Positions 9,789 to 21,591 of a stretch of DNA of 21,722 bases are shown piece by piece. Position numbers and translations under genes: made by a program. Origin of the DNA: a virus; the IMG/VR virus record IMGVR_UViG_3300017703_000408, positions 1-21,722 of that record. One strand, written 5' to 3'. How positions within the stretch are numbered: the stretch's first letter is position 1; each line of letters starts with the position of its first letter. Below the pieces are notes generated by a model that was not told where the DNA came from, ran no database searches, and saw only the letters and a list, made by a program, of their open reading frames with translations.

Positions 9789-10613
9789 CTAAACTCCGAA
9801 CCGCGCCTCGGCGGTGTATTCGCCATCTGCCCCATGGCTTGGGAAGACGAGGCTAGGCACCATGTGGCCGAACCGAAGATCGGTGCGGCACCATACCTTG
9901 AACCCCGCCGCCCTAGCCTTACGACAGAAGTAGACGTCTTCGCCAATTCGAGTGCCAGTTTCCTCGTCTGTGACATCCGCAAACCATGGCGGCTCCAACG
10001 CCTCTAACACTTCGCGTCGTATCAGCATCCCACACGCGCCCACCGCACCTACCTCGTGCAGCCCCGCAGGAGTCGGGAGCGTGGTCGGGACATCGTAAAA
10101 CTCGCCCGTGTCCGACGGCACCATGAAGTTGTGGTAGTAGGGGGCTACACGGGAGCATCCCCACCCCGCGACTACGTCCACATCGCTCCTCAGCAACTCC
10201 ATGAGCGTGCTGGGAGGGTAGACCATGTCGTTGTCGAGCATGAAGAGATGAGTCATCTGCTTCGCGCCCTGAGACGAGCGGACCTTCGCGCCCAGCATCA
10301 TCTCCACAGCCTCGTTCCGCATCGCGGCTATGGTCGCCTCGCGGATAATGTCCTGCGTCCACAACGCAGGCTTGTGGAGCGCTGAGAGGTTGTCCACAAA
10401 CAGCGCGGGCAGATGCTCCATGTTCGAGGGGATCGCTATCTGCACCGCCGGCTGCACCCTCGACATGGCGCTCGCCAACGCCCCGAACCCGTAGGATTCC
10501 TCGCTGCGATTCTCCAAAAGAGAATCCACCAGCGCACGCGCATCCTCATTAGGGATGAGCGAGGGAACCCCCTTTGGAGGTTCCATAACTGAGCTTGTAG
10601 GCTTTGCCTTCAC
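9789..10613 (-). CDS. Glycosyltransferase-like protein (GT-A type), copy 1
   Basis: 274 residues from a GTG at 10613, preceded by AGGAG at six bases; an ATG ten codons in lacks a ribosome site. THLFMLDNDMVYPPSTLMEL (about residues 121-140) carries DND, a DxD-type metal and nucleotide-sugar motif. Later blocks are LHEVGAVGACGMLIRREV, PPWF and EDVYFCRKARAAGFKVWCRT. These are shared with the product at 1414-2073, but this copy has a longer N-terminus (about 55 extra residues, low-complexity). It sits between a fibre-like gene and the adaptor, so it may modify virion proteins during assembly or act on host glycans. The donor and acceptor cannot be predicted. Confidence 0.8.
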   Translation of the reverse strand: MKAKPTSSVMEPPKGVPSLIPNEDARALVDSLLENRSEESYGFGALASAMSRVQPAVQIAIPSNMEHLPALFVDNLSALHKPALWTQDIIREATIAAMRNEAVEMMLGAKVRSSQGAKQMTHLFMLDNDMVYPPSTLMELLRSDVDVVAGWGCSRVAPYYHNFMVPSDTGEFYDVPTTLPTPAGLHEVGAVGACGMLIRREVLEALEPPWFADVTDEETGTRIGEDVYFCRKARAAGFKVWCRTDLRFGHMVPSLVFPSHGADGEYTAEARFGV

Positions 10614-14980: not shown

Positions 14981-17023
14981 TTACCCGGATGGTGGCGCTG
15001 CGGGCGCCTCTGGTGCTACTTCACCGCCGCCTTCGAGAGCCATCGCGTCTAGCCCCCCGCCAGCATCCTCGGGAGCCATCGGAACGCCGCCCGCAGCGTC
15101 GATCATCTGAGGGGCGCCACCCGGCTGCATCTGCCCGGCCATTCCGCCCGGCATCGCGCCCTGCTGCGCTCCCAACATCGCCTGCAACTGCTGCTGCACC
15201 TGAGCCTCACGCAGTTGCACTTCCATGTTCTGCACGTTGAGCGTCTTCAACTGCACAGAACGAGTCAATTCCAATGTCCGCAGGAAGTCCTCGTCGACCT
15301 CGATGTCCGCGTGCTTGATCGCCTGCAACGGGTCGAACCAACCCGCCTGCATCATCTGCATCGCGTTTTCCTGCTTCTCTGCCTTCGTCGTCGGCTCGTC
15401 CCACATCGAACGGATGCGGACGTCCACCGGCATCTCGCGGATAGCGTCGTCCCAAGCCATCCACTCGCCGCTCTGCATATCACCGGACGCCAGCACGTCG
15501 TGGAAGCTCGCATTCTCCTGCATCAACCGGAACCGCTGATACACACTGCGCCGGCGAGCCATGCCCACGTTCGTGAGCTTCTCACGTATCCGCTTGAACG
15601 CGGCGTCCTGTAACGTCTGGGTCTGCTTCGCGGAGACGTGCGTACCAGGTGACACGCCCTCCATCGCGTCGTTCACGTTCGTCGTCTTCTCGACGTTCTG
15701 CTCGATCTGGTCCATCACGCCGAAGAGCGATGACGGCACGTTCATGCCTTCGAGCTTCTTGACCGAGTTAATCATCCCGCGCGGAACCTCGACCGCTAAC
15801 CCTGGACGGTTGGACAGCCAATCTTCGCGCAACGCGCCTTCCTCATACACCCACTGGCCGTTCGCCATCAAGATAGCCATCTGCATCACCTGCGATTGCA
15901 GGACGTTCAGAGCTACCTGCTGACCACGCACCACCTCCACGTCACCGAAGCCGTACGGGTCGCGTGGATCGCCGTAGTTCCTATAGAGGACAAACGGTAG
16001 CTGCCCGTGAGCAAACGGGTTGGCGTCGTCCAAGAGGATTGTGTCGCCCGCCATGTGGATGCGGCGACCCTTCGGGAACGCGCTAGGCTCGACCGGCTCC
16101 TCAGTCCCCTCCAAGCCCGGCACGGCGTCCTCGAAATACCAGAACTCGTAGACTGTCACCTGCGGGCGGTTATAGTCTTGCGTGTCGGGGTGAGGGTCTT
16201 TGAACGGGCTGGAATACTCGTAGCGCCTGTACAGCCCCTCGTCGTCGATGATCGAGATGTCGTCATGCTCGATCGCCTTCTCTTTGACCTTGCGCGTCTC
16301 GTTATTGGACAGCCGATACACCCGTTGGACTCTGTCCAAGTCCATCTTCTTCTTCCAGACTACGAACGACGCGTTGCCGTCGTAGATCCGGTTAGAGAGG
16401 CACTCTGGGTCCACCATGAAGTCGCGCGGGTCGATCTGGATGACCGCTGGACGCCCCGTCTTCGTGTCCCAATACGTCTTCTCCACCGCAAGCCCGCCGA
16501 CAGTCATGTCCAGCAGCATGTTCTTGAGGTGCGCGTCTTCGTCCGTGCGCTCGAACTCCGCCTGCATCATGTCCGTAGCGTCGGTGGCGAGGTCCGAGAA
16601 TATCCGCTCGCGGTACTCGGTCTGCCCGCCGGCAAGCGACTGGAAGGGCAGGAATCCCGCGTTGGGGACCGGGCGGTTGGGGAAGTCAGCGACGATATAG
16701 GGCGCAGGGCGCATGTCCATCATCAGGGAGACGATGGAGTGGACCATCCCGAAGGTGACGTTGCGGATGGTGCGGAACCGCCAAGGCGGCGCCTCAGACC
16801 TAGAGCCATCGGAATTGAGCCACTGGTCGCCGTGGTAGAACGCGTACGACCCGTCGAACTGCGCGAGGAAAGCGCGGAAGTTGTCGCCCTGCTCTGCTGC
16901 CTTTATAGAGGCGCGCAGAATCCTCGCAGTCCGCTTTGCATCGCGGATATTGTTAAGCTCATGGAGCCGTCGCTCCGGCGCTATGTCTGAGGCGCGAAGA
17001 TCAATTCCCAATGATCGCCCCAA
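14981..17023 (-). CDS. Portal protein (P22-like)
   Basis: 680 residues. The N-terminal clip/wing region contains FYHGDQWLNSDGSRSE and WRFRTIRNVTFGMVHSIVS, leading to MMDMRPAPYIVADFPNRP. A typical segment follows: DMTVGGLAVEKTYWDTKTG, IQIDPRDFMVDPECLS. Then come the crown/stem helices (FGDVEVVRGQQVALNVLQSQ, FGVMDQIEQNVEKTTNVND) and a C-terminal Gln/Gly/Pro/Met-rich tail from about 600. This matches P22-like and podovirus portals, the ring for DNA entry and exit and for the terminase. No ATG lies near the N-terminus: a TTG at 17023 lacks a ribosome site, while a TTG at 17011 has GGGG six bases upstream and is a likelier start. The frame upstream is shared with the previous gene, ended by a TAG at 17054. 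Confidence 0.85.
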   Translation of the reverse strand: MGRSLGIDLRASDIAPERRLHELNNIRDAKRTARILRASIKAAEQGDNFRAFLAQFDGSYAFYHGDQWLNSDGSRSEAPPWRFRTIRNVTFGMVHSIVSLMMDMRPAPYIVADFPNRPVPNAGFLPFQSLAGGQTEYRERIFSDLATDATDMMQAEFERTDEDAHLKNMLLDMTVGGLAVEKTYWDTKTGRPAVIQIDPRDFMVDPECLSNRIYDGNASFVVWKKKMDLDRVQRVYRLSNNETRKVKEKAIEHDDISIIDDEGLYRRYEYSSPFKDPHPDTQDYNRPQVTVYEFWYFEDAVPGLEGTEEPVEPSAFPKGRRIHMAGDTILLDDANPFAHGQLPFVLYRNYGDPRDPYGFGDVEVVRGQQVALNVLQSQVMQMAILMANGQWVYEEGALREDWLSNRPGLAVEVPRGMINSVKKLEGMNVPSSLFGVMDQIEQNVEKTTNVNDAMEGVSPGTHVSAKQTQTLQDAAFKRIREKLTNVGMARRRSVYQRFRLMQENASFHDVLASGDMQSGEWMAWDDAIREMPVDVRIRSMWDEPTTKAEKQENAMQMMQAGWFDPLQAIKHADIEVDEDFLRTLELTRSVQLKTLNVQNMEVQLREAQVQQQLQAMLGAQQGAMPGGMAGQMQPGGAPQMIDAAGGVPMAPEDAGGGLDAMALEGGGEVAPEAPAAPPSG

Positions 17024-17356: not shown

Positions 17357-17818
17357 TCATTCCTCGGAGTCGTCGGACGCCCCCGCTTTTGCTTGGGCAG
17401 CTATTTCTTCGGGGAACCGCTCACGTACCCATAACACGAACTCGTCCATCGGCGCAACCCATCTTTCCGTGTTCGTCTTTCCGCCGATCACCTTCGTGAA
17501 CGGGAAGTCCGCTGCATCACGGAGTTTGCGCTTCTTCAGGGCATACGCAAACTTTTGCGGCGACATGCTCAGCGCCGCCGCTGCCATCCGGTAAGTGACA
17601 AGGTCGTCGCCCTCTACCGGATCGGGGTTCACCGCTTCCTCTTCAGTATACTGCTCGAACGGCGCGGAGTGTACAGCCGGCGCCGAGTCCGCCGCAACCT
17701 CGCGCTGCATCCACACGTCGTAGACCGTGTCGCGGCCCTGCACTTCCCGCTCGACGTGGACTATCTCCCAGCCGTCGGCGCAGAACTTCGACATCACCTC
17801 CGCCGTCCGGTTCTTCAC
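17357..17818 (-). CDS. DUF4177-like/helix-turn-helix protein, start uncertain (possible ACG at 17884)
   Basis: 153 residues from a GTG at 17818. The N-terminal part (MSKFCADGWEIVHVEREVQG, YDVWMQRE) resembles DUF4177-type proteins. An acidic linker follows, then a C-terminal domain (YRMAAAALSMSPQKFAYALK, then KVIGGKTNTERWVAPMDEFV) that fits an excisionase/MerR-like helix-turn-helix fold. The same frame continues upstream without an ATG, GTG or TTG to a TGA at 17902-17900 and encodes RQEYVPW, a strand expected at the start of a DUF4177 domain. A strong AAAGGAG sits five bases before an in-frame ACG at 17884. The real product may therefore begin there (175 residues). A DNA-binding regulator or packaging accessory is plausible. 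Confidence 0.7.
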   Translation of the reverse strand: MKNRTAEVMSKFCADGWEIVHVEREVQGRDTVYDVWMQREVAADSAPAVHSAPFEQYTEEEAVNPDPVEGDDLVTYRMAAAALSMSPQKFAYALKKRKLRDAADFPFTKVIGGKTNTERWVAPMDEFVLWVRERFPEEIAAQAKAGASDDSEE

Positions 17819-17881: not shown

Positions 17882-17897
17882 CGTAGGGACTCCTTTG
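17882..17897 (-). promoter_or_regulatory. Strong ribosome site followed by ACG
   Basis: On the minus strand AAAGGAG (17896-17890) is followed after five bases (TCCCT) by ACG (17884-17882), which is in frame with the DUF4177-like/HTH gene. No ATG, GTG or TTG in that frame lies between here and 17818. This decides between a non-canonical start and a shorter product. Confidence 0.5.
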
Positions 17898-17899
17898 GA

Positions 17900-18163
17900 T
17901 CACCATTCCGACTGCGCGGCAGGGCGTTTTCCCTCCCGCACCTCTTGCTGCTCAGCGCGCCACTGCTCCATAGCCTGATCGTCCGTCAGCACGCGCGAAT
18001 ACCGCTCGTGGTCAGGATCGTCGGGCATATCCACCGTGAAGCGCGACAGCATATCGCGTAGCTCCACATGCTCGGCGTGTTCCTCTTCCGTCAAGCCGCC
18101 CCACACGCCCAGAACCTCGAACCGGACGAACTTTGACAGAATGTCAGACAGCGCGACCTTCAT
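17900..18163 (-). CDS. Small protein, unknown function
   Basis: 87 residues, starting MKVALSDILSKFVRFEVLGV, then an amphipathic Glu/His-rich helix (LTEEEHAEHVELRDMLSRF), an acidic turn (DMPDDPDHE) and a C-terminal helix (QAMEQWRAEQQEVREGKR). The ATG overlaps the previous stop as ATGA. The stop (TGA) lies in the same frame as the next gene. No family recognised; the pattern would fit a protein-protein adaptor. Confidence 0.65.
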   Translation of the reverse strand: MKVALSDILSKFVRFEVLGVWGGLTEEEHAEHVELRDMLSRFTVDMPDDPDHERYSRVLTDDQAMEQWRAEQQEVREGKRPAAQSEW

Positions 18164-18414
18164 CCGAAGTCCACGTCCTTGACCGTCCCCACACGGCGGC
18201 GATCGTCGCAGACCACAGTAATCGGGACCGACATCACCCCCCGGTACTGCTGGAACTGGTCGTCAGACATCTGCGCCTCCGTCAGCGGGCGGCCGTCTTC
18301 GTCTCGCCACTCTTCCGGCGGCTGCGCGGTGAACGAGTGTCCCATCGCGACGTTGATGCGCGGTGAACGAGTGTCCCATCGCGACGTTGACGATGTCGCC
18401 GGTATCAGCGTCAT
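18160..18414 (-). pseudogene. Downstream fragment of the repeat-split Tat-signal protein
   Basis: This frame carries the natural C-terminus of the gene that begins at 18808. After the repeat-encoded NVAMGHSFTA it continues QPPEEWRDEDGRPLTEAQMS and ends VVCDDRRRVGTVKDVDFG. The frame itself opens inside the upstream gene, where its first 20 residues are a shadow; the ATG within the second repeat copy lacks a ribosome site. Removing one 34-bp repeat copy joins it to the upstream part in a single 204-residue protein. The ending resembles the end of the major capsid protein (VCDDRHRQGKIEDI). It overlaps the next gene as ATGA, as an intact gene would. Confidence 0.7.
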
Positions 18415-18808
18415 TCAAGGCGTTGCCTATAGGGGTGTCGAGCGCCGTTTGCAGCCCCCGGTAGACGTCCGAGTTCATTACGAGCATCTGCTCGTTTACA
18501 CTCTCGAAGCTCTGGCGCGTAGCCTCCGATAGTTCCTTGAGCAGGGGGTTGGTCGCCGGGCGCTTGCGCCACTCTGGGCGAGTGACGCCCCAACCGGGGG
18601 TCCACAGCCCGTCGTCGTCGTGGGGCGTAAGCTGCGTGCAGTTGCCGCTCTCGTCCTTGGAGAAGATGGCGTCAGCCTGACCATTCTCCATAGAGGTCGT
18701 CGAGTCGGGCCTGCTCGGTTTGCTGTGCGCGTCCCTGCCACTCAGCAACCCGCTCGCTAACACTGCTACCCCGCCCAGCGCCTTCGTCAGAAAGCTCCGC
18801 CTGTTCAT
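18263..18808 (-). CDS. Tat-signal-like structural protein, C-terminus frameshifted by a 34-bp duplication
   Basis: 181 residues as it stands, from an ATG at 18808 with GAGAGG seven bases upstream. It begins MNRRSFLTKALGGVAVLASG: RR-x-F-L-x-K followed by a hydrophobic stretch, like a twin-arginine signal. Residues 45-65 hold ADAIFSKDESGNCTQLTPHD, a block also found in the fibre-like protein at 2590-3630. Then comes a helical part (NPLLKELSEATRQSFESVNE) ending NVAMGHSFTA at residue 150. There the 34-bp duplication shifts the frame; the last 31 residues are an Arg/Ala-rich shadow. The intact form would be 204 residues. The start overlaps the upstream gene by 137 bases. Virion association is inferred from shared motifs and position. 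Confidence 0.65.
   Translation of the reverse strand: MNRRSFLTKALGGVAVLASGLLSGRDAHSKPSRPDSTTSMENGQADAIFSKDESGNCTQLTPHDDDGLWTPGWGVTRPEWRKRPATNPLLKELSEATRQSFESVNEQMLVMNSDVYRGLQTALDTPIGNALNDADTGDIVNVAMGHSFTAHQRRDGTLVHRAAAGRVARRRRPPADGGADV
18323..18390. repeat. Perfect 34-bp tandem duplication
   Basis: Two identical 34-bp copies, 18323-18356 and 18357-18390, adjoin without a gap (each starts tgcgcggtgaac). Because 34 is not a multiple of three, the second copy shifts the frame of the minus-strand gene. Both frames read NVAMGHSFTA across the repeat, which shows that one copy is the original sequence. Confidence 0.95.
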
Positions 18809-19617: not shown

Positions 19618-21591
19618 TCACACTCCTAGCGACCCGAAGTCGAATCCATCCCTAGCGCCACCGTCGCCGCGCCAATCCGTAATCTCGGTGCTGATACCCT
19701 CGCCACGACGCTGACGCTCACGCATCATACGGTCGTGATTCTCCATCGGAGTACGAGGCGGCGTCAACAGCCCATGGGTATAGTATGCACCGGCTAACGC
19801 GATAGCGCAATCATCATGGTGGCCTTCCTCGCTCGATCCCTCCTCAAACGGGCGCCCCTTCATCGGCGCCGCCACAGCGCCGTTCTGGTTCACGATCTGA
19901 AGCGACATCAGTTCCTTGACAAGCACCGACGAGTTCAACGCCGCGTGTTCCTCGTAGACCAAGTTCTTCAACTCGGACATCATCGCACGCTTCGTCGTCC
20001 GCGACGTACGCAGTCCCCACGTAGGCGTTGCCGACGTCTTGCCAACGAAGAGCATCTCTTCGGTGCCGAGGTTGGGGTAGGCGTACGCGAACGAATTTCG
20101 ACCGAGTAAGTCACGGATGATTTCTTGCCCGACAGTATTCGACTCAGGTACCAGTAGAGCATTGTTGTACCACAGCCCCGCCATGAAACACTGATCGCTG
20201 AACTCAGGCGTCTCGGGACGATACCATCGCGTACCACGCAGCAACGCCACAACCTCTAACGGCTGACGCCGCAGCACCAGCATCACGTTGAAGTCGCCGC
20301 TATTCGGCTTATTCTCACTCGCGTCGATGAACCCAATGAACTCCTCGCCGGGCTGGGGAACCGCCCACACGTCCATCCAGCGCGCCGTCTCCTCCGCCTC
20401 CTTGAACCGAGGCACGTGCGTATAGAACGGCATCTCCATGTACCCGCGCTTCGGCGCCTCTACTGTCGCATTTAGGTGCACCTGCATCTTGCCGCCGTCG
20501 AGGTAATTCCCGCCGCTGCCCTGGAACGCCTCGTCCTCCGTACGCGGATACTCGATCTTGAACTTCCGCTTGTCCATCCCTGGGTCGTCAATCTCACTGC
20601 GACGCCATGAGATTTGCCCCAGCGTTACCCCGAACTCCTCAATTAACGATCGTTCATCACCGTATTCGTCCGACTCGTCCCAGCGAATGTCGTTCGTCAG
20701 CCACTCTTCCCGATCGTCGTCCAAGACGTGCTGGTACTCGTGGTGATCCGTCCACGCGATAAACACCGGCAGGATCGAATCGACGCGCCCCAACTCCTCG
20801 TTACGCTTCGCCTTGATCCACTCACGCCAGAACGGGTCGCCATACGCCTTTGCCGTCGTCTCCAACACAACGTTGATCGTCGGATTGCTCTTCGGCACTG
20901 CCCGCAGCAGCCCCGTCATCGTCGCCTCGGGATTGTCCATATGCGCATACTCGGACAGGTGCAGCGCGTGAATCGTCATCCCACGCCCTGTGCGCCCGAT
21001 CGTCGACTTGGCGCTCTCACGAGCCAGCAGAACCTCCACGACAGAGTTCAGCGGCTCCTCCATGACCATCTTCGCAGCGAAGCGCATTCCGCGCCCCTGC
21101 TCGATCATGCAGTCCTTCGGCATGTATGTCCGATACCGACGGTACATCCCGAATAACTCGCTCACCGTCTTCTCTTCGTGCGCCATCACACGGCAGTGGC
21201 GATTCGGATATGCTATCGCGTCAAGGAAGTTATCACTCGCAATCTCGGTAGAGATGCCCGTCTGGCGCGGCTTCAGCACCGCGTGGCGTACAGGAAGCCC
21301 CTCGTCCCGCTGACGCTGTACTGACTTCCGATATATCGCCTGGCAGTTGTTCCCGACGAACGGGATCAGATCCTGCTGCTTGTCCGTGATAGTGAGGAGG
21401 CACGCCTTCGCCAGATGGCGCTCTTTGACCAGCAGCCCGCGAGCTTCCTCAGCAGCCGAGCCTTGCTGCAAAGCGGGTGTATCAGCGGCACGCAGCGTAT
21501 TCACCGCGCCAATGAAGAGGTCGCGCACCGCAGGGTCGATCCCTGGCGCAGGGGCGGGGGTATCAGCGACCGCAGAGGCGAGTTGGCTCAC
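19618..21591 (-). CDS. terL: Terminase large subunit
   Basis: 657 residues, the DNA-packaging motor ATPase and nuclease that docks on the portal. ATPase: HAVLKPRQTGISTEIAS (about 103-119) fits the deviant Walker A of terminases; ALHLSEYAHM (about 209-218) is a Walker B with Ser-Glu at the catalytic end; VVLETTAKAYGD (about 241-252) is the coupling motif. Nuclease: FIGFIDASENKPNSGDF (Asp about 423), VPESNTVGQE (about 481-490) and GHHDDCAIALAGAYY (Asp about 593-594) give the RNase H-like acidic residues. The length is on the large side of the family, with a long N-terminal region. The GTG start at 21591 follows GGGAGGGG at about nine bases. No small terminase subunit is present in the window; it may lie beyond the right edge. 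Confidence 0.92.
   Translation of the reverse strand: MSQLASAVADTPAPAPGIDPAVRDLFIGAVNTLRAADTPALQQGSAAEEARGLLVKERHLAKACLLTITDKQQDLIPFVGNNCQAIYRKSVQRQRDEGLPVRHAVLKPRQTGISTEIASDNFLDAIAYPNRHCRVMAHEEKTVSELFGMYRRYRTYMPKDCMIEQGRGMRFAAKMVMEEPLNSVVEVLLARESAKSTIGRTGRGMTIHALHLSEYAHMDNPEATMTGLLRAVPKSNPTINVVLETTAKAYGDPFWREWIKAKRNEELGRVDSILPVFIAWTDHHEYQHVLDDDREEWLTNDIRWDESDEYGDERSLIEEFGVTLGQISWRRSEIDDPGMDKRKFKIEYPRTEDEAFQGSGGNYLDGGKMQVHLNATVEAPKRGYMEMPFYTHVPRFKEAEETARWMDVWAVPQPGEEFIGFIDASENKPNSGDFNVMLVLRRQPLEVVALLRGTRWYRPETPEFSDQCFMAGLWYNNALLVPESNTVGQEIIRDLLGRNSFAYAYPNLGTEEMLFVGKTSATPTWGLRTSRTTKRAMMSELKNLVYEEHAALNSSVLVKELMSLQIVNQNGAVAAPMKGRPFEEGSSEEGHHDDCAIALAGAYYTHGLLTPPRTPMENHDRMMRERQRRGEGISTEITDWRGDGGARDGFDFGSLGV

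Follow-up and report, generated by a model that had tools for sequence, protein, structure and literature searches.

On the minus strand of the window (the whole stretch of 21,722 nucleotides that was analysed), five genes lie between those of the terminase large subunit and the portal protein. The second of the five, which begins at 18808, is interrupted by a perfect tandem repeat (Table 1). The gene that precedes it encodes a 314-aa protein whose N-terminus resembles that of the split protein (BLASTP E 0.001 in a two-sequence comparison).

Table 1 Coordinates of the split gene, its repeat and the neighbouring genes in the window
Feature	Position	Strand	Description
Terminase large subunit	19618-21591	(-)	phrog_2
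Preceding gene, 314 aa	18672..19616	(-)	N-terminus MDRRGFFGKLVGGVA, similar to that of the split protein; overlaps split gene by 137 bp
Present ORF of the split gene, 181 aa	18263..18808	(-)	150 putatively ancestral residues, N-terminus MNRRSFLTKALGGVAVLASGLLSG, then 31-aa out-of-frame tail
34-bp unit, copy 1 in reading order	18357..18390	(-)	TCAACGTCGCGATGGGACACTCGTTCACCGCGCA
34-bp unit, copy 2	18323..18356	(-)	Identical to copy 1 and adjoining it; 34 = 3 x 11 + 1, hence the frame shift
Orphaned 3' part, next frame	18160..18356	(-)	NVAMGHSFTAQPPEEW...KDVDFG; coding score +0.48 to +0.68 per codon
Next gene, 87 aa	17900..18163	(-)	Start within ATGA of the putative ancestral stop of the split gene
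Portal protein	14981-17023	(-)	phrog_156

Tandem Repeats Finder reported a repeat at 18323-18390 with a period of 34, 2.0 copies and a 100% match, which confirms the perfect 34-bp tandem duplication claimed in a previous sequence-only reading of this DNA. The two copies adjoin directly, with zero mismatches and zero spacer, and the chance expectation for a perfect adjacent repeat of 34 bp in the window is ~3e-13, with any period from 12 to 500 allowed. In a comparison set of 732 kb (82 loci of distantly related phages), perfect tandem repeats with a period of at least 30 bp were confined to one locus (L014), which begins with overlapping AT-rich repeats of 43/44 bp. No microhomology was found at the borders of the unit: the repeat comprises exactly 2 x 34 bp, with differing flanks on either side, ATCG ahead of it and GCCG behind it. 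The short identical border sequence that defines microhomology-mediated tandem duplications is thus lacking. A pair of loxP-like tyrosine-recombinase sites (34 bp, with 13-bp inverted arms and an 8-bp spacer) was rejected, as only 4 of the 13 arm positions match. A stable DNA hairpin was also rejected as the cause of the duplication, since the region, folded as DNA, was no better than its shuffles (z 0.65).

In the minus-strand reading, copy 1 carries on the frame ...DIVNVAMGHSFTA, and in copy 2 the same peptide, NVAMGHSFTA, is moved to the next frame, which then continues as QPPEEW...DVDFG. The coding potential on both sides of the repeat was assessed by codon log-odds, for which 15 other genes of the window served as the training set (true frame versus the two wrong frames); for the background distributions, each gene was scored by a model built without that gene. 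Over the 93 codons on the 5' side of the repeat, frame 1 scored +0.70 per codon, against -0.75 and -0.95 for the other two. On the 3' side, it was frame 2 that scored positively (+0.48 per codon, 54 codons), whereas frame 1, which ribosomes would now read, scored -1.07. None of 358 wrong-frame windows of equal length reached +0.48, and none of 179 true-frame windows was as low as -1.07. Since the shift of the coding signal from one frame to the other coincides with the repeat, the 181-aa ORF and the 3' ORF ending at 18160 were once one gene of 204 codons. A single ancestral gene cut by the 34-bp duplication, as proposed earlier, is thus strongly supported, and the full length of 204 residues given for it proved to be correct (150 shared residues plus 54 lost). 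The TGA of the ancestral frame sits within ATGA at 18163-18160, so that the proposed overlap of the restored gene with its neighbour was also found. Codon usage and reading frame are the two lines of evidence which point to an ancestral one-copy state.

The predicted present product of 181 aa keeps residues 1-150, gains a tail of 31 residues and lacks the last 54, so that the C-terminal quarter of the protein would be lost. The tail scored -1.02 per codon, like non-coding sequence, and none of 337 true-frame windows scored that low. The present stop at 18263 lies about 100 bases ahead of the start of the 87-aa gene. A polar effect is possible: translation of the 87-aa gene may drop, because ribosomes now stop at 18263. 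At its other end, the split gene shares 18672-18808 with the 314-aa gene, which is read in a different frame. In this overlap, the split gene scored +0.31 and the 314-aa gene -0.14, both being above typical wrong-frame sequence (2 of 442 wrong-frame windows reach -0.14). The overlap may therefore be dual-coding, or the end of the 314-aa gene may be shifted.

The N-terminus of the split protein is twin-arginine-like, as had been noticed before, although its score against TIGR01409 (16.0 bits, E 0.012), the profile for the twin-arginine signal with its RRxFL motif and hydrophobic stretch, is just under the curated cut-off of 16.7; a Tat signal is plausible but borderline. No family beyond this borderline signal was found for the protein in PHROGs, Pfam and NCBIfam. 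The AlphaFold models were unusable, with a mean pLDDT of 43 for the 181-aa protein and 37 for the 314-aa protein. The likenesses of the split protein to a 346-aa protein of the window (17 residues) and to the capsid protein (23 residues) were too weak to use. Elsewhere in the window, the proteins encoded at 9789-10613 and 1414-2079 both match phrog_1574 (unknown function; E 2.6e-21 and 1.4e-11, respectively), and the former also matches glycosyltransferase families.

The homologue search in IMG/VR returned only the near-identical record IMGVR_UViG_3300006750_000087 (23,536 bp), which shares 99.88% identity with the window; the alignment covers 19,415 bp and contains 23 substitutions but no indels. 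Its split gene is the same as that of the window at 661 of 661 bases, both repeat copies included, and an exact scan of IMG/VR with the two-copy junction matched this record only. Both records are thus in the two-copy state. The one-copy junction had no exact match in IMG/VR, where one relative was found and very near records possibly lay outside the search. The sharing of the duplication by two genotypes with private substitutions suggests that it predates their split and was most likely inherited from a common ancestor. Both records are metagenomic and close to clonal; their samples may be related and their assembly pipeline the same, so that they are not fully independent. A homologue with two copies, which the sequence-only reading had named as an argument against a disrupted gene, has thus been found. 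As a near-clonal relative, however, it most likely shares the allele by descent, and the short product is not thereby made normal. Fourteen of the 23 substitutions fall within 92 bp of the terminase gene, and 13 of the 23, most of them synonymous, lie in the 40 bp at 20626-20665, a cluster that points to a chimeric assembly or to recombination over a short tract.

More distant relatives of the split gene were sought in several collections. Neither the DNA search of INPHARED nor the protein search there with the 314-aa neighbour gave a homologue, the GTDB genomes contained no relative, and whole-record searches of 40 relatives were likewise negative. With a terminase profile, 79 relatives were found, but their identity of about 30% or less makes them too distant to carry the split gene. 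The tblastn search of 82 loci from distant relatives revealed no detectable relative of either the split gene or the 314-aa gene, as expected of accessory genes. The lineage is isolated, the closest terminase outside the near-identical record being about 30% identical.

We consider it likely that the repeat is a real, established loss-of-function duplication in a dispensable accessory gene, because the allele is common to at least two distinct genotypes. According to this explanation, a replication or repair error would have duplicated a 34-bp segment of an accessory phage gene in tandem. The length of this segment, not being divisible by 3, would have thrown the gene out of frame, so that a 181-aa protein with 31 foreign residues would have replaced the 204-aa protein and the stop would have been separated from the next start codon. 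As with tandem duplications in general, slippage between the two copies could in principle undo the damage. A simple accident of this kind would be the most economical origin. The suggestion that the event was recent fits the perfect copies and the non-coding new tail. Rapid loss of a pseudogene would be expected where the phage genome is compact; this is consistent with a recent event, yet leaves room for use. Two places downstream of the split gene lies a gene for a 175-aa protein. Its start at 17882-17884 is ACG in the window (SNP at 17883) and ATG in IMGVR_UViG_3300006750_000087, with AAAGGAG intact ahead of the lost start; the next in-frame start is GTG at 17818. The loss of this ATG in the window only suggests decay and fits a dispensable stretch.

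The repeat might alternatively act as a phase-variation switch. The gene would be OFF with two copies and ON with one, slippage or recombination at the repeat would convert each state into the other, and a mixture of both would be of advantage to the phage population. The anatomy would be sufficient for it: a perfect direct repeat, a frame-shifting length and an intact frame on both sides. The copy number of the 34-bp unit alters the reading frame, with the frame switch lying at the repeat, as in phase-variable genes, and in pneumococcal capsule genes phase variation is known to result from reversible tandem duplications within the ORF (Waite et al. 2001, 2003, as cited in PMC4243769). However, both records are two-copy only, the one-copy junction has no exact IMG/VR match, and the step from ON to OFF would require recurrence of the same duplication at a unit that no microhomology borders. 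The damage to the neighbouring 175-aa gene also suggests decay over regulation. Reversible switching is possible but unsupported, and we regard the switch as unlikely; somewhat less probable still is a reading in which the gene codes for an accessory protein exported by the Tat pathway and the 34-bp repeat is retained in the phage population to turn it on and off reversibly by a change between one copy and two.

The third explanation, also raised in the sequence-only reading, is an assembly or library artefact, in which the true molecule is single-copy and the second copy was introduced during assembly. Both records are metagenomic contigs, and repeats may have troubled the assembly: positions 1-54, at one end of the window, belong to an in-frame tandem repeat of about 4.5 copies of a 12-bp unit (TTSG in the protein), inside which the contig probably broke. 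On the other hand, the identical duplication is found in the second record, which carries 23 private substitutions. Assemblers more often collapse perfect short repeats than create them. We therefore hold an artefact to be very unlikely. It is most improbable that the two-copy form is functional as is, through use of the 181-aa protein or of a second product made by frameshifting or reinitiation: the allele is unchanged in two genotypes and the repeat holds an ATG in frame with the 3' part, but the codon statistics of the 31-aa tail are non-coding, direct reading found no Shine-Dalgarno-like sequence ahead of the ATG of copy 2, and the region folds as DNA no better than shuffles.

If only the established loss of function holds, the case is an ordinary one, indicating that the gene between terminase and portal is dispensable and warning that two adjacent ORF calls are one broken gene. 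If reads showed both states, this would be a rare case in which slippage drives switching in an uncultivated phage, and metagenomes would allow it to be measured directly. The duplication itself is a mutation of an ordinary type, and the phage lineage is little known.

Similar duplications have been described in other organisms. Spontaneous tandem duplications are known from the pneumococcal capsule genes of the type 3 locus, cap8E and tts (Waite et al. 2001, 2003, as cited in PMC4243769). As in these genes, a duplication inside the ORF breaks the phage gene and would be undone by the loss of one copy. Reversible switching in culture was reported for the capsule genes, whereas the phage gene has no known function and was seen in the two-copy form only. 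In the ssp1 gene of fission yeast, a short coding segment is likewise duplicated, which leads to a premature stop and is intrinsically revertible (as reviewed in PMC13207564). In contrast to the 34-bp unit, the units of the ssp1-type duplications have microhomology borders. In phage EfV12-phi1, evolving populations were found to carry a tandem duplication within the tail-fibre gene (PMC6365445). The EfV12-phi1 duplication is 1.8 kb long, in frame and linked to increased infectivity, whereas the one described here is 34 bp long and out of frame.
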